Positions 16,788-63,025 of a stretch of 64,000 nt of DNA are shown piece after piece (positions within the stretch are counted from its first letter, which is position 1; every line of letters starts with the position of its first letter). The position numbers and the translations under genes are program-made. The notes under the pieces are model-generated. The model saw only the letters and a program-made list of their open reading frames with translations, made no database searches and was not told the origin of the DNA. Source of the DNA: Pleomorphomonas sp. PLEO (GTDB lineage: Bacteria; Pseudomonadota; Alphaproteobacteria; Rhizobiales; Pleomorphomonadaceae); assembly GCF_041320595.1 (NCBI RefSeq), contig NZ_CP166625.1:3036001-3100000 (forward strand), given 5' to 3'.

Positions 16788-18389
16788 ATGACCAACCACC
16801 GTATATTCCGCACATTGTCGGCGACGTTGATCGCCGGCTCGATGCTGGCGGTTCTGGCGACGCCGTCGCTGGCCGAGGTCGTCATCCGCCGCGGCAATGG
16901 CGGCGAACCGCAGACGCTGGATCAGGCGCACATCTCGATCGACGTCGAGGGCTTCATTGTCCGCGACATGTTCGAGGGCCTTACCATTTATGATCCGCAC
17001 GGCAAGGTCATCCCGGGCGCAGCCGAGAGCTGGAAATTGTCGGACGACGGTCTGGTCTACACCTTCAAGCTTCGCGACAACGCGAACTGGTCGGATGGCA
17101 AGCCGGTGACGGCAAAAGACTTCGTGTTTGCCTACCGTCGGATGGAGGATCCGAAGGAAGCCGCCGAATACGCCAACATTCTCTATCCGATCAAGAATGC
17201 CGAAGCGATCAATGGCGGTAAAGCCGCTGTCGACACGCTGGGCGTCAAGGCGATCGATGACAAGACCCTCGAGATCACGCTTGAGCGTTCGACCCCCTAC
17301 TTCATCGAGCTGCTGGCCCATTACGCCGCGCTGCCGGTGCCGAGCTGGGCTATCGAGAAGTTCGGCAGCGAGTGGATCAAGCCGGGCAACATCGTCTGCA
17401 ACGGCGCCTACTGCCTGACCGAGAACGTGCCCAACGATCATCTCACGACGGTCAAGAATCCCAAGTACTGGGATGCGGCCAGCGTCAAGATCGACAAGGT
17501 CATCTACAATCCGTCGGAAGATATGGCGACCACCGAGCGCATGTTCGAAGCCGGCGAGCTGGACGTCGTCTATAATTTCCAGACCGACCAGAAGAAGTTC
17601 CTCGAGGGCAAGCTCGGCAAGGACCAGGTTCTGGCCGCGCCCGACCTTTCTTCCTATTATTACGTCCTCGATACGCGCAAGCCGCCGTTCGACGACGTTC
17701 GCGTCCGTCAGGCCTTCTCGATGGCCGTCGATCGCGACTTCCTGTCGGAGAAGATCTTCTCCGGCACGCAGCTGCCGGCCTACTCCTTCGTGCCGGAAGG
17801 CATTGTCGGCTATACGCCGGCCAAGCCCGAATGGTCCGAGCTCGATCAGCTCGACCGTGAGGACAAGGCCAAGGACCTGCTGAAGGAAGCTGGCTACGGC
17901 GAGGGCGGCAAGCCGCTTAAGGTCGACATCCGCTTCAACACCAACGAGAACCACAAGAAGGTGGCCACCGCCGTCGCCGACATGTGGAAGGCGCTGGGCG
18001 CCGAGGTGACCATTCAGAACCTCGACGTGAAGTCGCATTACGCCTACTTGCAGGAAGGCGGCTCGTTCGACGCGGCCCGTTGCGGTTGGCAGGCCGACTA
18101 TGCCGACCCGGAAAACTTCCTCAACCTGATGGTCAGCTCCAACAAGACCTTCAACTACGGTCACTACACGAATGCCAAGTTCGACGAGCTGATGAAGGGC
18201 TCCTACGAGGAGCGCGATGCCGCCAAGCGTTTGCAGATGCTGCATGACGCCGAGCAGGTCGCCATGGACGAGCAGGGTGTCGTGCCGCTGATGGTGCATG
18301 CCTCCACCTGGCTCGTTTCAAACAAGGTCAAGGGCTTTGCGCTGAATGGCGTCAACGAGCACCTGACCAAGTTCCTGTCGCTTCAATGA
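16788..18389 (+). CDS. oppA: Oligopeptide ABC transporter substrate-binding protein
   Basis: A 533-residue periplasmic SBP_bac_5 protein with a signal peptide (cleavage near SLAEVV). The order of blocks is canonical: GGEPQTLDQA at the mature N-terminus, VIPGAAESW and FKLRDNANWSDG in lobe I, then a later FDDVRVRQAFSMAVDR. The GEPQTLDP-type start is characteristic of OppA rather than DppA. It begins a five-function operon with oppB, oppC and a fused ATPase. It is a useful reference for the permuted binding protein at 57.8-59.4 kb. Confidence 0.88.
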   Translation: MTNHRIFRTLSATLIAGSMLAVLATPSLAEVVIRRGNGGEPQTLDQAHISIDVEGFIVRDMFEGLTIYDPHGKVIPGAAESWKLSDDGLVYTFKLRDNANWSDGKPVTAKDFVFAYRRMEDPKEAAEYANILYPIKNAEAINGGKAAVDTLGVKAIDDKTLEITLERSTPYFIELLAHYAALPVPSWAIEKFGSEWIKPGNIVCNGAYCLTENVPNDHLTTVKNPKYWDAASVKIDKVIYNPSEDMATTERMFEAGELDVVYNFQTDQKKFLEGKLGKDQVLAAPDLSSYYYVLDTRKPPFDDVRVRQAFSMAVDRDFLSEKIFSGTQLPAYSFVPEGIVGYTPAKPEWSELDQLDREDKAKDLLKEAGYGEGGKPLKVDIRFNTNENHKKVATAVADMWKALGAEVTIQNLDVKSHYAYLQEGGSFDAARCGWQADYADPENFLNLMVSSNKTFNYGHYTNAKFDELMKGSYEERDAAKRLQMLHDAEQVAMDEQGVVPLMVHASTWLVSNKVKGFALNGVNEHLTKFLSLQ

Positions 18390-50905: not shown

Positions 50906-52345
50906 ATGACTTTCCGCATCGCCGTCGGCGGTATTCACATTGAATGCAGCACCTATTCGCCGGCCCTGACACGCAGCGAGGATTTCCGCGTCGTGCGCGG
51001 CGCCGAACTGCTGGAAGCCGATTACTTCAGCTTCCTCAAGGCCAGCGATGCCCTCCATTTGCCGCTTCTGCATGCCCGCGCCGTGCCCGGCGGTCCGGTG
51101 GCACGGGATGCCTATGAGGCGTTCAAGGCCGATTTTCTGGAGCGATTGAAAGCGGCGCAGCCGCTCGACGGGCTTTATCTCGCCATGCACGGCGCCATGA
51201 ATGTCGAAGGCATGGACGATGCCGAGGGCGACTGGATTTCGTCCGCCCGCGCCGTGGTCGGTCCCGACTGCCCGATCGCCACCAGCTACGATCTGCACGG
51301 CAACCTGTCGCAGACGATCATCGATCAGATCGACATTTTCGCCGGTTATCGCACTGCGCCACATATCGACGTGCGCGAAACCATGGTTCGCGCCTGGTCG
51401 ATGCTGCTGAAAGCGCTGAGGACTGGTGAAAAGCCCGGTGTCGCCTGGGCTCCGGTGCCGGTGCTGCTGCCCGGCGAGCGGACCTCGACCGAGGATGAAC
51501 CTGCCAAGAGCCTCTACGCGGTGCTGCCTGATTTCGACCGGCAGCCCGGTATCTGGGATGCCAATCTGATGGTTGGCTACGTCTGGGCCGACGAACCACG
51601 TGCCACGGCCTGCGCCGTCGTGACGGGCACTGATCGCGACGCTGCCCAGGCGGTGGCCGAAGCGATTGCCGATTCCTATTGGCGAGCGCGTGACGCCTTC
51701 CGGTTCGGCCCCGTCACCGGCTCGCTGCCGGAGATGCTCGATCTGGCGGAACAGGCGCGGACCTCTCCGGTGATCTTGGCCGATTCCGGCGATAACCCGA
51801 CGGGCGGCGGTGTCGGCGATCGCGCCGACGTGCTGAATGCGTTGATAGCGCGCAATTTCCAAGGTGCCATCGTCGCTGGCATCACCGATCGTCCGGCGAC
51901 GGACGCCTGCTTTGCCGCTGGCGTCGGCGTGGAACTGGAGCTTTCCATCGGCGGTACGCTCGATCCGTCTTCGCCGCGCGCTATCACCAAGGCCTGCGTG
52001 CTTCGGCTCGACGAGGACGAAGCCCTGGCCGAGCGGCAGGCTGTGGTCACCGTTGGCGGCATCACCTTGGTGCTGGCGGCGCGACGGCGCCCCTATCACA
52101 ACATCTCCGATTTCACGCGTCTGGGGCTCGATCCTCGTACGGCGCGTCTTGTCGTCGTCAAGTCGGGATACCTGTCGCCGGAATTGCAGCCGATTGCCAA
52201 TCCGAACCTGATGGCGCTCACCGATGGCGTGATCAATCAGGAGATCGAGGCGCTCGTCTCCGAACGGCGGGTGCAACCGATCTATCCGTTCGTCAAGAGC
52301 TTCGACTACCGGGCGGCGGCCGTGTTCTCGGCACGCTGGCGATAA
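50906..52345 (+). CDS. M81 family metallopeptidase (MlrC-like), copy 2
   Basis: A 479-residue paralogue of the minus-strand M81 protein. It has the equivalent blocks VGGIHIECSTYSP, AMHGAMNVEGMDDAEGDW, the metal-site TSYDLHGNLS and ADSGDNPTGGGVGDR. It starts 12 bases after the GH20 stop. The two paralogues differ clearly in the C-terminal half, so they probably have different substrates. Function of most M81 proteins outside microcystin degradation is unknown. Confidence 0.87.
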   Translation: MTFRIAVGGIHIECSTYSPALTRSEDFRVVRGAELLEADYFSFLKASDALHLPLLHARAVPGGPVARDAYEAFKADFLERLKAAQPLDGLYLAMHGAMNVEGMDDAEGDWISSARAVVGPDCPIATSYDLHGNLSQTIIDQIDIFAGYRTAPHIDVRETMVRAWSMLLKALRTGEKPGVAWAPVPVLLPGERTSTEDEPAKSLYAVLPDFDRQPGIWDANLMVGYVWADEPRATACAVVTGTDRDAAQAVAEAIADSYWRARDAFRFGPVTGSLPEMLDLAEQARTSPVILADSGDNPTGGGVGDRADVLNALIARNFQGAIVAGITDRPATDACFAAGVGVELELSIGGTLDPSSPRAITKACVLRLDEDEALAERQAVVTVGGITLVLAARRRPYHNISDFTRLGLDPRTARLVVVKSGYLSPELQPIANPNLMALTDGVINQEIEALVSERRVQPIYPFVKSFDYRAAAVFSARWR

Positions 52346-52405: not shown

Positions 52406-53620
52406 ATGCGATCGGCCCTTTCGATCGTCTATGGCAATCCCCGACTGCGGGTCAGCGCCATAGGCATCTTCTTCTTCGGCTTTACGGGTGCGGCGACATC
52501 GCCTTACTACTCGCTGATTGGCATCCACGAGCTGGGCCTCAGCAATACGGCCTTCGCGGTGGTCAGTTTCTGCGCCGCCATCGTCAACGTGTCGGCAAGC
52601 GTCGCCGCCGGCATCCTGGCCGATCGGCTTGGCCGGTTTCGACTGCCAATACTCGCCGTCTGTTTGGCCGGTGTGATTGGTTATCTACTGGTGTATTTCT
52701 TGCCGACGGTGGCCGTTTTCACGGTGGCGTCGCTGATGCTGATTCCGGTGTTTGGCGCTCTCAATTCATTGATCTTCGCCTACGTTCGAGCCGGTTCAGA
52801 AGCGTTGGCGCCGCGCGAAATGATTGCCGTCAACTCGGCGATCCGCGCTGTCATATCAGCCTCCTGGGTGCTGGTTCCCGGCATTGTCGGCTTCGCCCTG
52901 GCGGGACGGCCGAGCATGCTTCCGGCCTTCCTGTTGGCAGGTCTCGCCTGCGCCGTCTGTTTCCTGCTGTTCGCCGTTCTGGTTCGAGAGCAGGCTGGCG
53001 AGAGGGTCGAACGAAGAGAGCCGTCCTATGCATTCCTCGCCTCATTGAAGCAGATCGGTTCCGTCTCGGTCTGGCCACACGTCGTCGCCATCGCGCTGAT
53101 TACCAGCATGCTGCACGTCAACGGCACCGTGCTCCCTCTGATCGTTACCGGTCAGGCTGGTGGCAGTCCGGCCGATGTCGGTACCATTGTCGGCATCGTG
53201 GCGCTGCTTGAGGTGGTGTTCATCATCGTCTGGGGATGGATCGAGGCGCGCACGTCGTCTGTTCTGGCGGCCTCGGCCTCGGCGGCCTTCTATAGTCTCT
53301 ATCTGGCGCTGCTGGGGCTTTCCCACAACACGGTCAGCGTCTACCTGCTGACGGGGATTTCCGGCTTCGGTGCTGCCGGCATCATCGCCATTCCCATCAC
53401 CTACCTGCAGAACCTGATCGCGCGTCGCGCCGGCCTTGGCAGTTCGCTGATCGCCGTCAATGTCTTTCTGAGCGGTGGTCTCAGCGCCTTGCTGTTCTCG
53501 CTCGGTACTTCGATCAGCGACTACACCGGCGCCTCGATGCTCGGTGCCGCCGCCGGCCTGCTCGGGGCGCTGCTGCTGATCTTGCTGCGCTACGGTGTCA
53601 TCGGAGGCCGGTCGTCCTAG
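52406..53620 (+). CDS. MFS transporter, SetA/SotB-like sugar carrier
   Basis: A 404-residue membrane protein with about 12 TM segments. Loop 2-3 carries GILADRLGRFRLP. The general pattern, including PYYSLIGIHELGLSN at the start, resembles sugar-efflux (SetA) or related sugar-handling MFS proteins. It is the last gene of the group starting with RidA at 46.7 kb and ends 37 bases before the end of the converging OppF gene. Confidence 0.75.
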   Translation: MRSALSIVYGNPRLRVSAIGIFFFGFTGAATSPYYSLIGIHELGLSNTAFAVVSFCAAIVNVSASVAAGILADRLGRFRLPILAVCLAGVIGYLLVYFLPTVAVFTVASLMLIPVFGALNSLIFAYVRAGSEALAPREMIAVNSAIRAVISASWVLVPGIVGFALAGRPSMLPAFLLAGLACAVCFLLFAVLVREQAGERVERREPSYAFLASLKQIGSVSVWPHVVAIALITSMLHVNGTVLPLIVTGQAGGSPADVGTIVGIVALLEVVFIIVWGWIEARTSSVLAASASAAFYSLYLALLGLSHNTVSVYLLTGISGFGAAGIIAIPITYLQNLIARRAGLGSSLIAVNVFLSGGLSALLFSLGTSISDYTGASMLGAAAGLLGALLLILLRYGVIGGRSS

Positions 53621-53656: not shown

Positions 53657-54649
53657 TCACGCTTGCGCGTGAGCGAGGGTTCGACCTTCCTCGACGGCAT
53701 GGCAGGCAACACGGGCGTTGCCGGCGACCATCATGGCGGGCACCTCGGTCTTGCAGCGGTCGTTAGCCAAGCTACAGCGCGGGTGGAAGGGGCAGCCGGA
53801 TGGCGGGTTGAGCGGCGAGGGGATTTCGCCTACCAGCTTGATCCGTTCGCCCCGTCGGTCCGGATCGGCGATGGGCGTCGCCGATAGCAGCGCCCGCGTG
53901 TAGGGATGGCGTGGCGTTTCGAACAGGTCCCGCACTGGCGCCACTTCGACGGCATGGCCGAGATACATGACCATGACGTCGTCGGCGATATGCCTGACGA
54001 CGGCCAGGTTGTGCGAAATGAACATCATCGACAGGTTGAACTGCGCCTTGAGTTGCTTCAACAGGTTCAGGATCTGTGCCTGTACCGAAACGTCGAGCGC
54101 CGACGTCGGCTCGTCGCACACCAGGAATTCCGGTTCGAGGATCAGCGCCCGGGCTATGCCGATGCGCTGGCGCTGACCGCCGGAGAACTCGTGCGGGTAG
54201 CGGTCGGCGGCCTGTGGCGGCAGTCCCACCAGCGCCAGCATGTCGAGAACCGCCTTGCGCCGGCTGGCGGTGTCGCCGATGCCGTGGATGACCAGGCCTT
54301 CGGCAATGGAGTCGCCAACCGGCAGGCGGGGATCGAGCGATGAATAGGGGTCCTGGAAGATGATTTGGATGCGTCGGCTATATTCGGGGGCGACGCCCAT
54401 GTCCGGACCGGCGATCTGCTTGCCTTCGAAGAGAATTTCACCGGCGCTGGGCGGATAGAGGCCAACGACGATCCGCGCCAGCGTCGATTTGCCGCAGCCG
54501 CTTTCGCCGACAAGGCCGAGCGTGCGGCCACGCTCAATACTGAGGCTGACGTCGTCGATGGCTTTCACCTCGCCGACGACGCGCTGCAGGAGCCCCTTGC
54601 GAAAGGCGAAGCTCTTCTTGATGCCGTTGAGTTCGATGAGAGCGCTCAT
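53657..54649 (-). CDS. Dipeptide/oligopeptide ABC transporter ATPase, DppF/OppF type
   Basis: A 330-residue ATPase with Walker [13 protein letters not shown], signature FSGGQRQRIGIARA and Walker B FLVCDEPTSALD. The C-terminal oligo_HPY domain carries the cysteine cluster GCPFHPRCSLANDRC. It overlaps the DppD gene by 4 bases (ATGA) and is the last gene of the five-gene importer operon (59.4 to 53.7 kb). Confidence 0.9.
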   Translation of the reverse strand: MSALIELNGIKKSFAFRKGLLQRVVGEVKAIDDVSLSIERGRTLGLVGESGCGKSTLARIVVGLYPPSAGEILFEGKQIAGPDMGVAPEYSRRIQIIFQDPYSSLDPRLPVGDSIAEGLVIHGIGDTASRRKAVLDMLALVGLPPQAADRYPHEFSGGQRQRIGIARALILEPEFLVCDEPTSALDVSVQAQILNLLKQLKAQFNLSMMFISHNLAVVRHIADDVMVMYLGHAVEVAPVRDLFETPRHPYTRALLSATPIADPDRRGERIKLVGEIPSPLNPPSGCPFHPRCSLANDRCKTEVPAMMVAGNARVACHAVEEGRTLAHAQA

Positions 54650-55659
54650 GCGGGCGGCGTCTCCTTGGAGGCGAGGGGCTCGGTCGCGGGGCGCCAGCAG
54701 CGGCAGTTGTGTCCTGCGTTCACTTCGGCAAGCGGCGGTACCTCGCTGGTACAGCGGGGATCGTCGAGTGTCCGCCGTACCGTGCAACGCGGCGCGAACA
54801 GGCAGCCGTCGGGCAGTTGCGTCAGTTGCGGAACCCGCCCGTCGATCACTTCCAGCATATCGGTCATCGCTCCGATCACCGGTACCGAGCGGAGCAGCGC
54901 CTGTGTGTAGGGATGGCGTGGCGACTTGAACAGCGTTCTCACATCGGCGAACTCGACGATCTGGCCGGCGTACATCACCGCGACATGGTCGGCCATTTCC
55001 GCCACGACCCCGAGGTCATGGGTGATCAGTACTATGGCGGTGCCGAAGTCGCGTTGCAGGTCGCGCATCAGGTCGAGGATCTGAGCCTGAATGGTGACGT
55101 CGAGAGCCGTGGTCGGCTCGTCGGCGATCAGCACCTCCGGCTGGCAGGCGAGCGCCATGGCGATCATCACCCGCTGCGCCATGCCGCCCGACATTTCGTG
55201 CGGGTAGGCTTTCATGCGGCGGGCCGGATCGGGGATGCCGACGGCGGCTAGCATCTTCATCGCAGCCGCTTCCGCCTCGCGCCGCCCCATGTTCCGGTGC
55301 AGCATGTAGACTTCGGCGATCTGCCGGCCGACGGTATGCACCGGATTGAGCGACGACGACGGGTCCTGAAAGATCATCGACACGCGATCGCCGCGCACCT
55401 TGCCGAGTTCTGCCGCCGACATCTGGCGCAGATCCGCGCCATTGAGGCGGATTTCGCCCGCCGTCACCCGGCCAGGGTAGGGAACCAATCCCATGATGCT
55501 GAGCGCGGTGATCGATTTGCCGCAGCCACTCTCGCCGACAATGCAGAGGGTCTCGCCGGCGGTGATGCTGAGCGAGACGCCGTCGACCGCGCGGGCCGTA
55601 CCAGCGCGTGTGGCGAACTCCACCGCCAGCTCGCTGACGTCGAGGATCGGACTTGCCAT
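54646..55659 (-). CDS. Dipeptide/oligopeptide ABC transporter ATPase, DppD/OppD type
   Basis: A 337-residue ATPase. Walker [12 protein letters not shown], the signature [12 protein letters not shown] and Walker [13 protein letters not shown] are present; the SGGMxQ form of the signature is normal for DppD. A C-terminal HPY domain has [10 protein letters not shown]. The frame is open to 55821, but the ATG at 55659 gives the correct N-terminus. It forms a heterodimer with the following ATPase. Confidence 0.9.
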
Positions 55660-55667
55660 GACGGTTC

Positions 55668-56621
55668 TCACGTATTGAGCCGTGGGTCGAGGGCATCGCG
55701 CAGCCCGTCGCCAAGCAGATTGAAACCGAGCACCGTCAGCATGATGGCAATGCCGGGGAAGAAGACGAGGTGTGGCGCCGAAAATACCTGGTCCTTTTCG
55801 GTGCCGAGCATGGTGCCCCATTCCGGCATCGGTGGCTGGGCGCCGAGACCGAGGAAGCTGAGGCCTGCTGCATCGAGAATGGCTGTGGCGATACCGAGGG
55901 TGGCCAGCACGACGATCGGGGTGATGGCGTTGGGCAGCACACGCCGGAACAGAATGCGGGTCCGGCTGCCGCCGAGGACGCGAGTCGCCGAGACGAAATC
56001 GAGCGTCTTGACCGACAGCACGCTTGCCCTGGTGACGCGGGCATAAGCGGGCATCGAGACCACCGATATGGCAAGAAGCGCATTGACAATGCCTGGCCCC
56101 AGCACGGCGACGATGGCGATCGCCAGAAGCAGTGACGGAAAGCCGAGGATCACATCCATGACACGCATGATGATGTTATCGATAAGCCCCCCGAAAAAGC
56201 CGGCGACCGCGCCGAACAATACGCCGCACACCAGGGCGGCGGTGACGGTGACGAGACCGATCATCAGGCTGATCCGCGTACCGTGCAGGACGCGCGACAG
56301 CACGTCGCGCGCATTGCCGTCGATTCCCATGATGTGCTGCGGGCGGCTGACGTCGCAGCCCAGAAGATGCACGCATGGCGCTTCGCGACGCTTGACGTGT
56401 TCTGTGCCGATCAGCACGTCGTTCGGGTCGTAGGGCGCAATAACCGGGGCGGCGATGGCGATCAACAGCAGCATGCCGAGGATAATCAGCCCGACCTGGC
56501 CAGAGCGTTTGCGCAGCAGGCGGCGCCATGTCTGTTTCCACAGCGGTACCGGGTCGCCGATCAGGCCTTCTTCGGCGATGGCGTCGGCGGCCACGGCCGA
56601 CGCGGTATCAAGACGGGTCAT
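55668..56621 (-). CDS. Dipeptide ABC transporter permease, DppC type
   Basis: A 317-residue permease with an N-terminal cytoplasmic stretch, TM1 at about 45-65, and the family blocks GIDGNARDVLSRVLHGTR and the EAA-type loop SATRVLGGSRTRILFRRVLPN. It ends with NLLGDGLRDALDPR. A cysteine-containing insert (RREAPCVHLLGCDVSRP) lies in the first periplasmic loop. It is 8 bases from both neighbours in the operon. Confidence 0.9.
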   Translation of the reverse strand: MTRLDTASAVAADAIAEEGLIGDPVPLWKQTWRRLLRKRSGQVGLIILGMLLLIAIAAPVIAPYDPNDVLIGTEHVKRREAPCVHLLGCDVSRPQHIMGIDGNARDVLSRVLHGTRISLMIGLVTVTAALVCGVLFGAVAGFFGGLIDNIIMRVMDVILGFPSLLLAIAIVAVLGPGIVNALLAISVVSMPAYARVTRASVLSVKTLDFVSATRVLGGSRTRILFRRVLPNAITPIVVLATLGIATAILDAAGLSFLGLGAQPPMPEWGTMLGTEKDQVFSAPHLVFFPGIAIMLTVLGFNLLGDGLRDALDPRLNT

Positions 56622-56629
56622 GGCTTGTC

Positions 56630-57709
56630 CTATTGAGGCCTGATACGGGGATCGAGATAGGTGTAGGAGAGGTCGACGAGCAGGTTGATGGCCACATAGG
56701 ACACCGCGATCATGACCGTGAACGCCTGCACCACCGGATAGTCGCGGGCAAAGATCGCCTCGACGAGCATGCGGCCGACGCCGGCAAGGCCGAACACAGT
56801 CTCGGTGAGGACCGCGCCGCTCAGCAGCGCGCCCATTTGCAGACCGAGAATGGTGACCACTGGCAGCATGGCGTTGCCGAGGGCGTGCTTGCGCACGACG
56901 TCACGGTCGAGCACGCCCTTTGCTCTGGCTGTGCGGATGTAGTCGCGGCCCAATACGTCGAGCAGCGACGACCGGGTCATGCGAGCTATGACGGCCATCG
57001 GAATGGTCGACAGCGCAATCACAGGCAGAACCATGTGACGCAACGCATCCCAAAACACGGGCCAGTTGCCGGTAATGAGGGCGTTGAGAATGTAGAAGTT
57101 TGAGAAGAACTCCAGAACGCGCGCCCAACTGCTTCCGGCGGCGATTTCCCAGTGCCAAGCCTCATAGAACGGCACCGAGGACATTCCGGCCGACAGGCGC
57201 CCGGACGGTGGCAACCAGAAGGGAGTGCCGCGCAGCATGACGCCGAACAGATAGGCGAGCATCAGGCCCAGCCAGAAAACCGGCATGGAAATGCCGACGT
57301 TGGCGACGACCATAGTCCCCACATCGGTTGCCGAGTTGTGCCGGCGGGCAGCGAGGATGCCGAGACCGATACCCACCACCGAGGCGACGATTAGCGCCAT
57401 GAACGCCAATTCGGCAGTCATCGGCAGCCGCTCGACGATGATTTGCGACACCGGACGGGAAAACCGGATGGAATTGCCGAAATTGCCGTGAAATATGTCG
57501 GTGACGTAGATGAGGAACTGGCTCAGCAGCGGCTTGTTGAGGCCGTAGCGTTCGGCAAAGGCAAGGCAGGTTTCCGGTGAGACCTTGTCGCCGAGCATCG
57601 CCTTGCATGGGTCGCCAGGAATGAGTCTGGCGAGCGCGAACGTCACGACAAGAATGCCGAAAATGACCGGTATAGAAACCAGGACGCGTTTGGCAGCGTA
57701 TCCGAGCAT
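56630..57709 (-). CDS. Dipeptide ABC transporter permease, DppB type
   Basis: A 359-residue permease starting MLGYAAKRVLVSIPVIFG and ending SYTYLDPRIRP, as in DppB. The EAA-type docking loop is RTARAKGVLDRDVVRKHALGN. A periplasmic insertion of about 45 residues (GTPFWLPPSGR to YILNALITG) makes it somewhat longer than E. coli DppB. The frame is open to 57754; the ATG at 57709 is chosen for its family N-terminus. It follows the binding-protein gene by 58 bases. Confidence 0.9.
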   Translation of the reverse strand: MLGYAAKRVLVSIPVIFGILVVTFALARLIPGDPCKAMLGDKVSPETCLAFAERYGLNKPLLSQFLIYVTDIFHGNFGNSIRFSRPVSQIIVERLPMTAELAFMALIVASVVGIGLGILAARRHNSATDVGTMVVANVGISMPVFWLGLMLAYLFGVMLRGTPFWLPPSGRLSAGMSSVPFYEAWHWEIAAGSSWARVLEFFSNFYILNALITGNWPVFWDALRHMVLPVIALSTIPMAVIARMTRSSLLDVLGRDYIRTARAKGVLDRDVVRKHALGNAMLPVVTILGLQMGALLSGAVLTETVFGLAGVGRMLVEAIFARDYPVVQAFTVMIAVSYVAINLLVDLSYTYLDPRIRPQ

Positions 57710-57767: not shown

Positions 57768-59387
57768 TTACTTCTTGACGTTCATAAGGCTTCCCCAGAG
57801 GCTGGAGAAGTAGTCGAACGAGCCGGTGTTGCCGACATGGGCGGCGTTGGCGGCGTCGATGCCGGCCGCCCAGGAGACGACGACGTCGTTGGCATCGAAG
57901 TCGCTGCCGTCGGTGAACTTCACGCCTTCGCGAAGATGGCAGGTCCACACCGTTGAGTCGCCGTTGGCTTCGCAGCTTTTGGCCAGGCTCGGAACGATGG
58001 CACCGCTGTCCTTTGCGTAGTCGAGAAGGGCCTCGATGATCGGCGTACAAGCGTAGAGCGATTCACCGTCGGTCTCGTCGGCACAGTAGAGGCTGATCGG
58101 CTCGGCGCTCTGCATGAACACCAGCGAATCCTTGTCGGGGACCATATCCTGCAGCCGCGGCGCACCGAACGGACGCAGCGATGCGTTCTTCAGCGTGGCG
58201 CGAGCGCCGAAAGCAGCAGCGCCGTGGGCGATCGGAATGGTCGGAACCAAATTCTTGATGGAGTTGTTGGCCTCGGTGTAGAGCGGCTCGACCGTCTTGA
58301 CGTCGGCGATGGTGCCCGCCTTGTTCAGCACGTCGTAGATTTCGGCGAAGGGTTTGCCGAACTGCTTGTTGGTGCTGGCGAAGTGGTAGTCGAGGAAGTT
58401 GGTGATGTGCGGATAGTCCGCGCCCCAGCCGAGCAGGTAGAAGCCGTCGAGGCTGCCCGAGTTGGCCCGGCTGATGAACTCGCCCGATTCCATGGGCGTC
58501 ACTTCGACGTCGATGCCGAGGTTCTGCTTCAGCTGGGTCTGGAACTCGACCGCCACGGCGCTCGGTTCCGGCAGATAGGTGCGGAACACGTCGCGATAGT
58601 AGATCTTGGTCTTGAAGCCATCGGGATAGCCCGCTTCGGCCAAGAGCTTCTTGGCAGCCGCCGGATCGAACTTGTACCAATCCTCACCGCTGCAACCGTT
58701 GGGCAGCGAGCACGGCGTGAAATGCGAGGCGACTTCTGAACCTTCGGGGAAGAAATTTTCGACGATGCGTTGCCGGTCGACGCCCATGGCGATGGCCTGA
58801 CGAACCTTGACGTCGTCAAACGGCTTCACCGTATTGACCATGCCGAGGTAGAGCGTGTTCGGGCTGGCAAGCGGCAGGAACTGGAGATCGGGGTCGTTCT
58901 TGACGCCATCGAAGTCTTCGGGGCTGAGGTTGGCGACAATGTCGGCCGTGCCGGCGCGCAGCTCGTTCAGACGGCCGGCTCCCGACTGATTCCAGCGGAT
59001 CACCAGCGTCTTGTAGGAGGGCTTGTCGCCCCAATAGTTGTCGTTGCGGCTCATGACGATCGAGTCGCCACGGTTCCAAGCGTCGAGCTTGAACGGGCCC
59101 GTGCCGATCGGTTTGTCGAGCAAGGCCTTCTTGGGGCCATCCTTTTCAATGTGTTCGGAAGGCTCGATACCGAACGAAACGAAGGCGGCCTTCGCTTCGA
59201 ACGCGGGATCTGGAGAGCACATGGAGAAGGTCACAGTGTGCTCATCGGTGGCAACGATCGATTTGATCTTGCCACCATAGCTACAGTCAGACGCCGCGAC
59301 GCTCTTGCCTTCGAAACTATATGCGGGACCAGCGAGCAGAGCGGTCATGGAGACCATGGCCACTCCACTAAGTATACCTAATTTCAT
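57768..59387 (-). CDS. ABC substrate-binding protein with circularly permuted SBP_bac_5 domain
   Basis: A 539-residue periplasmic protein with a signal peptide (cleaved near residue 24, AYSFEG). The block order is unusual. Right after the signal comes GGKIKSIVATDEHTVTF, which in normal SBP_bac_5 proteins lies past lobe I-a. The blocks that should open the protein (SAEPISLYCADE, IIEALLDY, GAIVPSLAKSCE, CHLREGVKFTDGSDF) are at residues ~427-515, at the C-terminus. Compare oppA at 16.8 kb, with the normal order. All segments appear present, so it looks permuted rather than truncated. The start has a strong AGGAGGTG. Confidence 0.87.
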   Translation of the reverse strand: MKLGILSGVAMVSMTALLAGPAYSFEGKSVAASDCSYGGKIKSIVATDEHTVTFSMCSPDPAFEAKAAFVSFGIEPSEHIEKDGPKKALLDKPIGTGPFKLDAWNRGDSIVMSRNDNYWGDKPSYKTLVIRWNQSGAGRLNELRAGTADIVANLSPEDFDGVKNDPDLQFLPLASPNTLYLGMVNTVKPFDDVKVRQAIAMGVDRQRIVENFFPEGSEVASHFTPCSLPNGCSGEDWYKFDPAAAKKLLAEAGYPDGFKTKIYYRDVFRTYLPEPSAVAVEFQTQLKQNLGIDVEVTPMESGEFISRANSGSLDGFYLLGWGADYPHITNFLDYHFASTNKQFGKPFAEIYDVLNKAGTIADVKTVEPLYTEANNSIKNLVPTIPIAHGAAAFGARATLKNASLRPFGAPRLQDMVPDKDSLVFMQSAEPISLYCADETDGESLYACTPIIEALLDYAKDSGAIVPSLAKSCEANGDSTVWTCHLREGVKFTDGSDFDANDVVVSWAAGIDAANAAHVGNTGSFDYFSSLWGSLMNVKK

Positions 59388-59671: not shown

Positions 59672-60397
59672 ATGCGCAATGAAAAAGGACAGGGCATGCT
59701 GCGGACCGACTCGCGAGTCCTGTCCGATCGTATCCAGCACGTTGCCGAGGCCATGGCGGGTTTCATTGAACATGCTGATCTCAAGAAGGGCGATCGGCTG
59801 CCGACCGAGCGTGAGCTGATGGTCGCTCTCGGCGTTGGGCGGTCGACGGTCCGCGAGGTGATCGGTCGCTTCCAGGCGCTCGGCATCGTCGAAAGCCGGC
59901 GCGGCAGCGGAACGTATCTTCTACAGCCGATCAGTTCGCAGACCATCTCCATGCCATTGTTGGTTGGCACCGCCAACCTGCGAGACGCCCTTCTTCAGAC
60001 CCTCGAAGTCCGGCGAGCACTGGAAATTGAGGCATCAATGCTGGCCGCGCTACGGCGCACCCCCGAAGACCTTGAGATCATCGCGGCCCGACTCGATGAA
60101 ATGGAGCATGTCCACATCAGCAAGGGAACGTCGGGGCCTGAAGACCTAGCATTTCACCTTGCCATCTACGACGCGACACACAATCCCCTGTTTCGCCAAC
60201 TGCTCGAACAGATGCGAGAAGCCTTTGAGCGCTTTTGGGACAAGCCGTTCGATCGTCCGGACTTTGCCCGTCGCTCCTTTCCCTTTCACCGCCCCCTCTT
60301 CAACGCCATTGCGGCTCAGGACGCAGTGGCGGCCCGGCGTGAAACCACCGAGATTCTCACGGTGGTAGAAGAGGACATCAAGGAAATGTCTAAATGA
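59672..60397 (+). CDS. FadR-subfamily GntR regulator (FCD domain)
   Basis: A 241-residue regulator. The winged helix is at about 20-90 (LPTERELMVALGVGRSTVREVI, wing RRGSGTYL) and the all-helical FCD domain at about 100-225 with FHLAIYDATHNP, where Asp and His are typical metal ligands. FCD regulators usually sense organic or amino acids. It faces the permuted-SBP importer and overlaps the PLP enzyme gene by 4 bases, so it probably governs both directions. ATG at 59696 is an alternative start. Confidence 0.88.
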   Translation: MRNEKGQGMLRTDSRVLSDRIQHVAEAMAGFIEHADLKKGDRLPTERELMVALGVGRSTVREVIGRFQALGIVESRRGSGTYLLQPISSQTISMPLLVGTANLRDALLQTLEVRRALEIEASMLAALRRTPEDLEIIAARLDEMEHVHISKGTSGPEDLAFHLAIYDATHNPLFRQLLEQMREAFERFWDKPFDRPDFARRSFPFHRPLFNAIAAQDAVAARRETTEILTVVEEDIKEMSK

Positions 60398-61566: not shown

Positions 61567-61633
61567 TCTACCAGATCAGACTTGCCGGTCTCCATACTCA
61601 CGGTGGCCGGCTTTCCATTGAGGATTGCTTGCC

Positions 61634-63025
61634 ATGACCGATATCGATGCCGTGCTGGCACGCGCCGATGCGAACCTGCCGTCCAGCCTCGACACGCTGT
61701 TCGAACTCGTTAGGATAAAGTCGATTTCTACCGATCCCGCCTATAGGGCAGATTGTCGCGAGGCGGCGGCCTATCTCGTCCGCCATCTCGCCGACATCGG
61801 CTTTAAGGCCTCGGTGCGCGAAACCGACGGCAATCCAGTCGTTGTCGCCCATCATGAGGGTATGGCCCCCAACTGCCCACACGTGCTGTTTTACGGTCAT
61901 TATGACGTCCAGCCTGTCGATCCGTTGGAGCTTTGGACGCACGATCCCTTCGAACCGGCCATCCGTGATGCCGGCAATGGCCGCAAGATCATTACCGGAC
62001 GCGGTACCTCCGACGACAAGGGCCAGCTCCTGACCTTCCTGGAAGCCGTCCGCGCCTACAAAGAGGTCAGGGGCACGCTGCCGATCCGGCTGACCGTGCT
62101 GTTCGAGGGCGAAGAGGAATCCGGTTCGCCATCTCTGAGACCGTTCCTGCTCGCCAATGCCGAGGAGCTCCGCGCCGATTTCGCCATGGTCTGCGATACG
62201 TCGATGTGGGATGCCGAGACGCCGGCAATCTGTGCCAGTCTGCGCGGCCTTGTCGGGGAGGAAGTTATCATTACGGCGGCCGATCGTGATCTGCACTCCG
62301 GCGGATACGGTGGCGCCGCAGCCAACCCTATTCATATTCTTTCGGACATTCTGGCTGGCCTTCACGACCGGACAGGGGCCGTGACGCTTCCTGGGTTTTA
62401 CGATGGCGTGGAGGAGGTCCCTGGGGCGATCAAGGCAGATTGGCAGCGGCTCGAGGAAACTTCGCCGGGGTTTCTGACCGATATCGGTCTGTCGCGGCTT
62501 TCCGGCGAACAGGGGCGGTCGCGGCTGGAATTGATCTGGGCTCGGCCAACAGCCGAGATCAACGGTATCAGTGGCGGCTATGCCGGCGATGGTTTCAAGA
62601 CGGTGATCGCTTCCAAGGCCACTGCCAAGGTGTCGTTTCGCTTGGTCGGCAGCCAAGATCCTCTGAAGATCCGAGAGAGTTTTCGCGCCTATTCGCGGTC
62701 GAAGGTGCCGGAAGACTGCAAGGTCGAGTTCGCCTCGCACGGTGCCTCGCCGGGAATCCAGCTCCCCTATGACTCGCCGGTCCTTGATAAGGCGAGGGCG
62801 GCCCTGTCGCACGAATGGCCCAAGCCGGCCATCGTGGTGGGCGGAGGCGGTTCCATCCCCGTCGTCGGCGACTTCCGCTCCATCCTTGGCATGGATTCGC
62901 TGCTCACCGGTTTCTCCCTTGCCGACGATCGCGTTCATTCGCCCAATGAGAAGTATGATCTCGCCTCGTTCCACAAGGGCATCCGCTCCTGGGTTAGGAT
63001 CATAGACGCGGTGGGTGCAAAGTAA
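61634..63025 (+). CDS. M20 family dipeptidase (CNDP/DapE-like)
   Basis: A 463-residue zinc peptidase of the M20 group, close to the cytosolic nonspecific (Cys-Gly/carnosine) dipeptidase branch. Metal and catalytic elements are LFYGHYDVQP (His, Asp), RGTSDDKGQL (bridging Asp), FEGEEESGSPSL (catalytic Glu and metal Glu), DTSMWD and C-terminal HSPNEKYDL (His). The dimerisation lid (ADRDLHSGGYGG) is present. Start ATG at 61634 with GAGGA upstream. It is the last gene of the regulator-PLP-peptidase unit. Confidence 0.88.
   Translation: MTDIDAVLARADANLPSSLDTLFELVRIKSISTDPAYRADCREAAAYLVRHLADIGFKASVRETDGNPVVVAHHEGMAPNCPHVLFYGHYDVQPVDPLELWTHDPFEPAIRDAGNGRKIITGRGTSDDKGQLLTFLEAVRAYKEVRGTLPIRLTVLFEGEEESGSPSLRPFLLANAEELRADFAMVCDTSMWDAETPAICASLRGLVGEEVIITAADRDLHSGGYGGAAANPIHILSDILAGLHDRTGAVTLPGFYDGVEEVPGAIKADWQRLEETSPGFLTDIGLSRLSGEQGRSRLELIWARPTAEINGISGGYAGDGFKTVIASKATAKVSFRLVGSQDPLKIRESFRAYSRSKVPEDCKVEFASHGASPGIQLPYDSPVLDKARAALSHEWPKPAIVVGGGGSIPVVGDFRSILGMDSLLTGFSLADDRVHSPNEKYDLASFHKGIRSWVRIIDAVGAK

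Follow-up and report, generated by a model that had tools for sequence, protein, structure and literature searches.

A circularly permuted SBP_bac_5 (cluster C) binding protein encoded with Dpp-like ABC importer genes in Pleomorphomonas sp. PLEO

The stretch of DNA analyzed here, called the window, comprises 64,000 nucleotides of the Pleomorphomonas sp. PLEO genome. An open reading frame at 57768..59387, which the initial annotation had reported without naming its strand, lies on the minus strand and encodes a binding protein of 539 amino acids that starts with an ATG at 59387 and has an AGGAGG just upstream. This gene is encoded together with ABC permease and ATPase genes, all on the minus strand, namely permease B (DppB-like, 56630..57709) with a cysteine-bracketed scoop loop and a long TM3-TM4 loop, permease C (DppC-like, 55668..56621) with a Cys83/Cys89 pair, and the ATPases D (54646..55665) and F (53657..54643), both with ABC_tran and oligo_HPY domains. 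On the plus strand, a gene for a GntR/FadR-type regulator (59672..60397) is divergent from the binding-protein gene, and a gene for an M20-type peptidase (61625..63025) is of a type that also lies near the permuted gene in Hyphomicrobiales loci. Two further genes adjoin the importer operon on the other strand, one for an MFS transporter (52406-53620) and one for an MlrC-like protein of the microcystinase family (50906-52345) that scores far below the curated cut-off.

The binding protein matches the Pfam domain SBP_bac_5 (PF00496) with 285.6 bits against a gathering score of 32.4. The match falls into two stretches, the best of which aligns residues 32-342 with positions 61-367 of the 368 in the profile. 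The OppA encoded elsewhere in the window (16788-18389) yields one SBP_bac_5 stretch covering profile positions 1-366, which is the normal order that had been ascribed to it. When the window protein was compared with E. coli DppA (1dpe) by phmmer, residues 447-530 matched chain residues 29-118 and residues 42-412 matched chain residues 125-501. In profile-profile comparisons with a normal-order alignment of relatives (12 rows, 532 columns), the C-terminal block (profile A3) corresponded to columns 33-142 with an E value of 9e-30, and the body, residues 37-417 (profile A1), to columns 138-530 of 532 with an E value of 2e-86. By phmmer and by profile-profile comparison, then, the protein is negative for the canonical domain order, the order being rotated. 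The initial annotation had claimed that the conserved blocks are present in rotated order and had proposed looking for two partial domain matches in that order; the Pfam stretches, the phmmer alignment and the profile matches bear out the former, and the latter were seen both with phmmer against 1dpe and with the separate block profiles described below.

Read from its N-terminus, the protein begins with a signal peptide without a lipobox (residues 1-24, 59316..59387; no cysteine at the lipobox column), cleaved, as judged by eye, probably after AYS. This is followed by a new N-terminal extension that contains Cys35 (residues 25-40, 59268..59315) and by the M block (residues 41-412, 58152..59267), which equals DppA 125-501 and in canonical receptors is the second of the two parts. 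The former C- and N-termini meet without an extra linker in a junction (residues 413-424, 58116..58151) that leads into the a block (residues 425-530, starting at about 419 by profile; 57798..58115), the canonical N-terminal segment that is now C-terminal, and the chain ends in a new C-terminus (residues 531-539, 57771..57797), all of these features being on the minus strand. The mature N-terminus had been placed at GGKIKS, which is wrong in that about 15 mature residues, including Cys35, precede this motif. At the joint, receptor residues 413-446 (34 residues) replace DppA residues 502-507 of the 507-residue chain plus residues 1-28 (also 34), and the joint has therefore gained no residues. 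The new termini map between residues 118 and 125 of E. coli DppA, a stretch that the domain limits of DppA place in the outer subdomain of lobe I.

We give practically no credence to the reading that an assembly or gene-order artefact, or a chance similarity of the C-terminal segment, accounts for this arrangement; nothing speaks in its favor, and the same order recurs in 80 distinct sequences, the moved block is matched at the E value given above, and dN/dS is about 0.08. The last value comes from the window gene and its relative L005 (dN 0.043, dS 0.53), for which the values are alike in body, joint and moved block, a pattern showing the signature of purifying selection on the receptor gene. 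Because the source genome is assembled as one contig and the 80 distinct sequences have an identical order, the rotation of the chain of this SBP_bac_5 receptor is confirmed to be neither chance nor an assembly fault. Since its domain order is rotated, membership of the protein in cluster C is hence by descent, with a changed topology.

Structure prediction, also proposed by the initial annotation as a check, modeled the whole chain confidently. With 27 permuted sequences as input, AlphaFold2 gave the whole protein a pLDDT of 89.8 and a pTM of 0.86, with residues 421-539 at pLDDT 79-98 (in blocks of ten) and residues 1-22 below 50. This is contrasted by the C-terminal block alone (25 sequences), for which the pLDDT was 53.6 and the pTM 0.48. 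Because the block is modeled poorly alone and confidently within the whole chain, its ordering apparently requires the remainder of the chain, with the qualification that short fragments can fail for other reasons. Such dependence is expected if the block packs as the first segment of lobe I, and we infer from the model that it does so. A Foldseek search of the PDB returned DppA (5f1q, chain of 513 residues) as top match, with 387 columns, a TM score of 0.65 and an rmsd of 2.6, and the best PDB matches were dipeptide receptors. That the alignment covers only 387 columns is expected, since a sequential aligner loses the rotated block. The rotated chain is thus predicted, by modeling only, to fold confidently as a whole.

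Similar proteins had been suspected to occur in other bacteria, and we found them in Chloroflexota, Actinomycetota and Hyphomicrobiales. Searching genome contigs with the protein yielded 85 confirmed loci; among the 80 listed, 26 hold full-length collinear relatives besides the window's own, with 35-93% identity. With profile A1, the match of permuted members extends over most of its 564 positions through to the end; that of normal-order receptors, among the matches listed, is confined to about positions 36 to 450. With separate profiles for the two blocks, the order in 163 SBP open reading frames from 143 loci was M-a in 87, a-M in 73 and M only in three, one of which (L127) ends at a contig edge. 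Some genes, including that of the window, recur among the 87, which represent 80 distinct permuted sequences, the window's own included. A search of the 163 open reading frames of the 143 loci for intermediate arrangements (a-M-a or other orders) found none, nor was any duplicated intermediate or relic of the permutation mechanism seen among them.

A permuted receptor is present in five of 397 genomes sampled from the order to which the window genome belongs and in three of the 14 genomes listed as the same genus, the window's own included, a patchy presence as expected for transfer or loss. The only genome with a permuted receptor in a sample of 349 Pseudomonadota was the window's own. The family is found in 56 of 400 Chloroflexota genomes, one of which (G639) is cut by a contig edge so that its order is not visible, and at E 1e-90 a match occurs in five of 296 Actinomycetota genomes, four of them full-length and one (G856) in normal order; many family members come from metagenome-assembled genomes, and single phylum labels may be wrong. 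Close relatives at E 1e-80 are present in 56 of 111 Deinococcota genomes, none of them matching through both blocks, and all ten Deinococcota loci checked for order are normal-order. Plasmid records gave 3,986 matches, all below 60% identity and, among the 40 matches listed, at 25-35%; permuted copies may thus occur on plasmids at low identity. In a small genome (G762; L124, L125), permuted receptor genes stand side by side in two pairs, which may represent a local expansion of the family. Separately, L119:1821-3785 and L120:2299-4203 (larger contexts L157 and L158) encode permuted receptors that evolve fast and carry a C-terminal tail rich in Pro, Ala and Ser; these genes lie between ordinary transporter genes beside a normal-order receptor.

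Once put into register, 42 permuted and 45 normal-order receptors gave an unrooted tree in which all permuted receptors fall on one side of one branch (100/100). As the permuted proteins form one clade, the tree suggests that the permutation arose in one event; being unrooted, it leaves the statement that normal order is ancestral to rest on the wider spread of that order. The permuted branch attaches next to six rows in normal order, which come from Deinococcota, Actinomycetota and Chloroflexota (93/77). The Hyphomicrobiales rows (the window's own gene and Devosia) are nested within Chloroflexota and Actinomycetota rows (100/86), a nesting that suggests transfer. Several rows, L119 among them, have long branches. 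In separate quick trees for each block the permuted rows again group together, with support of 98 and 99.

An alternative that we consider improbable is that the C-terminal block was acquired separately from another binding-protein gene as a partial-domain fusion. The authors of a study on the circularly permuted receptor TpMglB-2, in the part of the text available (PMC4990184), raise this origin for their protein, in which the moved segment is poorly conserved. Our block trees differ, as the nearest normal-order rows in the body tree are the same six sisters as in the full tree, whereas in the moved-block tree, which has 110 columns and is poorly resolved, the nearest by path length are L066, L080, L078 and L002. 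Against separate acquisition, the moved block is 34% identical to the sister profile over 110 columns and tiles with the body. Moreover, constraining the moved block to group with the body's six sisters was slightly better (likelihood 35.4 above the free quick tree, p-AU 0.925) than constraining it to group with L066/L080/L002 (30.8 above the same tree, p-AU 0.851); the body constrained with L066/L080/L002 was not rejected (p-AU 0.466). Both blocks thus fit one source, which falls short of proof. We propose that the permutation occurred once, most simply by tandem duplication followed by fusion and loss of both ends. It may have taken place in a lipoprotein of the Chloroflexota/Actinomycetota type, with later transfer to Hyphomicrobiales, where the protein is without a lipid anchor.

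The available portion of a study on E. coli DppA reports that R383 and D436 form salt bridges with the carboxyl and amino ends, respectively, of the bound dipeptide (PMC12136057; precursor numbering, converted by adding 28 to the mature numbering). In an alignment with 1dpe, R269 and D324 of the window protein occupy these two positions and may bind the carboxyl and amino ends of a peptide as the DppA residues do. R269 is kept in 76 and D324 in 78 of the 80 permuted sequences, and the same columns in 73 normal-order rows hold an arginine in 12 (17 rows are gapped there) and an aspartate in 35. An M20-type peptidase gene is found near the receptor gene in the window and in all eight Hyphomicrobiales loci with enough flank. 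Because R269 and D324 are kept and this peptidase gene is a neighbor, the ligand is likely a di- or oligopeptide, and in the Hyphomicrobiales version the imported peptides could then be cut by the M20 peptidase. The window protein scores 172.9 bits with the DppA equivalog model NF043070, below its curated cut-off of 1005. That the ligand is instead another cluster C compound, such as an opine, a metal chelate or a sugar, appears unlikely but deserves some weight, since cluster C receptors have many ligand classes and the matched structures include nickel and agrocinopine binders. The conserved R269 and D324, the dipeptide receptors as best matches and the M20 peptidase genes all speak against a non-peptide ligand.

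The window protein has eight cysteines, at positions 35, 57, 226, 232, 435, 447, 472 and 483. Across the 80 permuted sequences these occur in pairs: Cys226 and Cys232 are both present in 67 and both absent in 13, Cys435 and Cys447 both present in 77 and both absent in three, and Cys472 and Cys483 both present in 58 and both absent in 22. The first pair, Cys35 and Cys57, is complete in 66, while 12 sequences have Cys57 without Cys35 and two are gapped; in 11 of those 12 another cysteine lies a few residues from position 35. The three alignable pairs, and Cys57, are absent from the 73 normal-order rows, one of which has a lone Cys232. The natural reading is that the eight cysteines would form four disulfides. 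An earlier proposal of new disulfides from extra cysteines in both joined regions is supported by the pairwise co-occurrence and the absence from normal-order relatives, with a correction as to location: 226/232 is distant from either joint, and 472/483 falls within the moved block.

A cysteine at the lipobox column is present in 62 of the 80 permuted sequences and often leads into an extended linker with abundant Pro, Thr, Ala and Glu. The remaining 18 comprise the nine Hyphomicrobiales sequences, L024-L026 (Anaerolineae), L093, which by eye has a lipobox-like cysteine out of register, and L091, L128, L129, L134 and L140, for which the start is truncated or uncertain. Because the new termini map between DppA residues 118 and 125, the anchor of the lipoprotein members would leave the receptor from another face than it does in normal-order receptors. 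Among 14 permuted proteins scanned for domains, a number of them chosen for their length, three have a second receptor domain fused at the N-terminus. In L018:1998-4409 and L123:2089-4530 an SBP_bac_3 domain (amino-acid type) precedes the permuted SBP_bac_5 domain and the protein has a lipobox-like start; in L091:1492-3825 a Peripla_BP_6 domain precedes the permuted receptor and the reading frame runs off the end of the locus. We had considered the long open reading frames as domain duplications, an explanation rejected for these three by the SBP_bac_3 and Peripla_BP_6 domains that they carry. The domain scan of the long open reading frames in L121, L122, L140, L093 and L131 shows SBP_bac_5 only.

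A natural permutation of this kind has a precedent in TpMglB-2 (Tp0684), a circularly permuted cluster B glucose receptor found in many bacteria, in which, according to the accessible part of its description, an N-terminal lobe segment moved to the C-terminus (PMC4990184), as in the family described here. The same source states that TpMglB-2 needs extra structure and a fourth hinge crossing and that its moved segment is barely recognizable by sequence. The family of the window protein differs from this sugar receptor in belonging to cluster C, in its linker-free joint and in a moved segment that is clearly homologous. Membership in the TpMglB-2 type (cluster Bc) is ruled out, as SBP_bac_5 is the sole Pfam match above cut-off and the PDB matches listed are of the peptide/nickel type. 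The authors of that study proposed, in the text available, that permutation helps tethering (PMC4990184); because members without an anchor exist in our family, tethering is not needed here to keep the permutation.

The permeases encoded beside permuted receptors share traits of their own. Permease B is found in the flank of 67 of the 78 distinct permuted loci (the 11 without it include short flanks) and permease C in 43 of the 78. Outside Hyphomicrobiales permease B is 52-65% identical to that of the window, and inside 75-100%. All 67 permease B partners have Cys36 and 66 have Cys49, the odd one having a cysteine a few residues on (permease numbering starts one codon before the ATG). These two cysteines bracket the scoop loop; in E. 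coli DppB the corresponding loop extends into the cleft of the receptor, according to the part of PMC12136057 available. The TM3-TM4 loop is 58-65 residues long in all 67, as measured between anchors that we set. By comparison, none of 47 permeases B from normal-order loci has a cysteine at either position and their TM3-TM4 loop has at most 45 residues. The Cys83/Cys89 pair of permease C is present in 33 of 33 partners and in none of 36 from normal-order loci, 26 of which are gapped there. Identity and length filters removed no permease B of permuted loci; the length filter removed eight permeases C of permuted loci and seven of normal-order loci.

A strong permease-B match occurs in 32 of 251 Chloroflexota genomes; all 32 carry a permuted receptor, and the sole further receptor genome in this sample is G639 with its contig edge. 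Three permeases B in G446, G455 and G514 (about 375 bits) were considered as transitional and rejected; they lack the scoop cysteines, have a short loop and lie beside normal-order receptors, and are therefore ordinary. The divergent permuted receptors of L119 and L120 have only ordinary permeases nearby. We also observed a partner permease B (L161:5900-7039) with a further TM3-TM4 loop insertion that holds two cysteines, and a genome, G620 (L159, L160), that has kept both the permuted receptor gene and the permease genes, at a distance of about 1.07 Mb on the same contig. These traits mark the permease pair of permuted loci as a distinct transporter subfamily. As all of them belong to one lineage, they do not prove that the permutation required them. 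In our proposed mechanism the closed receptor would dock on permeases B and C, with the scoop loop and the longer TM3-TM4 loop fitting the receptor.

Collectively these data indicate that the protein is very probably a genuine, naturally arisen circular permutant of a cluster C (SBP_bac_5) binding protein and serves as receptor for a Dpp-like di-/oligopeptide ABC importer. A natural circular permutation within one signal-peptide gene, as the initial annotation had suggested, is supported by the sequence, by a conserved family of 80 sequences that forms one clade, and by structure prediction. We tentatively entertain, at somewhat less than an even chance, a new class of peptide importer in which one ancient permutation shifted the termini and anchor of the receptor within lobe I, from the hinge side to the outer subdomain. 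In such a class, receptor and translocator were rebuilt together (receptor disulfides, a disulfide-bracketed scoop loop, a longer TM3-TM4 loop), and the freed N-terminus became a site for a second receptor of other specificity. Evenly balanced in our judgment is the view that the permutant is real but a neutral, frozen accident, the cysteines and permease loops merely marking the same old lineage. The ligand residues and operon layout are ordinary, and the permuted order is kept by lipobox forms (62/80) and anchor-free forms alike. All traits also lie on one branch, so that their coincidence with the permutation may reflect shared descent, a cause inseparable here from co-adaptation. What counts against neutrality is that three genes carry lineage-specific extracytoplasmic changes and that the permease pair is kept even where it is unlinked from the receptor gene (G620); these two observations suggest a matched receptor-permease docking surface.

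The closest characterized system, E. coli DppA with its DppABCDF importer, has the same Pfam domain, paired Arg/Asp ligand residues (reported in the available part of PMC12136057) and the same five-gene importer layout. The window family differs from it in the rotated chain and four cysteine pairs of the receptor, and in permeases with a cysteine-bracketed scoop loop, a long TM3-TM4 loop and the permease-C cysteine pair. The nearest relatives are the normal-order receptors L028, L029 (left out of the tree as a near-copy of L028), L030, L143 and L119:3863-5617 from Deinococcota, Actinomycetota and Chloroflexota. These have the canonical order and none of the cysteine pairs, and in loci whose flank shows it the receptor gene is followed by permeases; the permease-B loop has 43 residues in the normal-order loci L028, L029, L030 and L038. 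No permuted cluster C receptor is named in the titles and abstract openings of open-licence literature among the matches listed. We therefore describe a cluster C receptor by descent that is permuted in topology and has its own permease subfamily, natural permutation itself being already known from TpMglB-2 in the available part of PMC4990184.

To our knowledge, few natural circular permutants combine a single origin with a linker-free joint and extant relatives in normal order. With this family it can be tested directly whether chain topology matters to a receptor that must open, close and dock, and, given the matched permease traits, swaps could probe the specificity between receptor and translocator. 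Biosensor design, in which binding proteins are permuted artificially, also gains a natural template. Domain annotation that is blind to order misreads this whole receptor family in three phyla.
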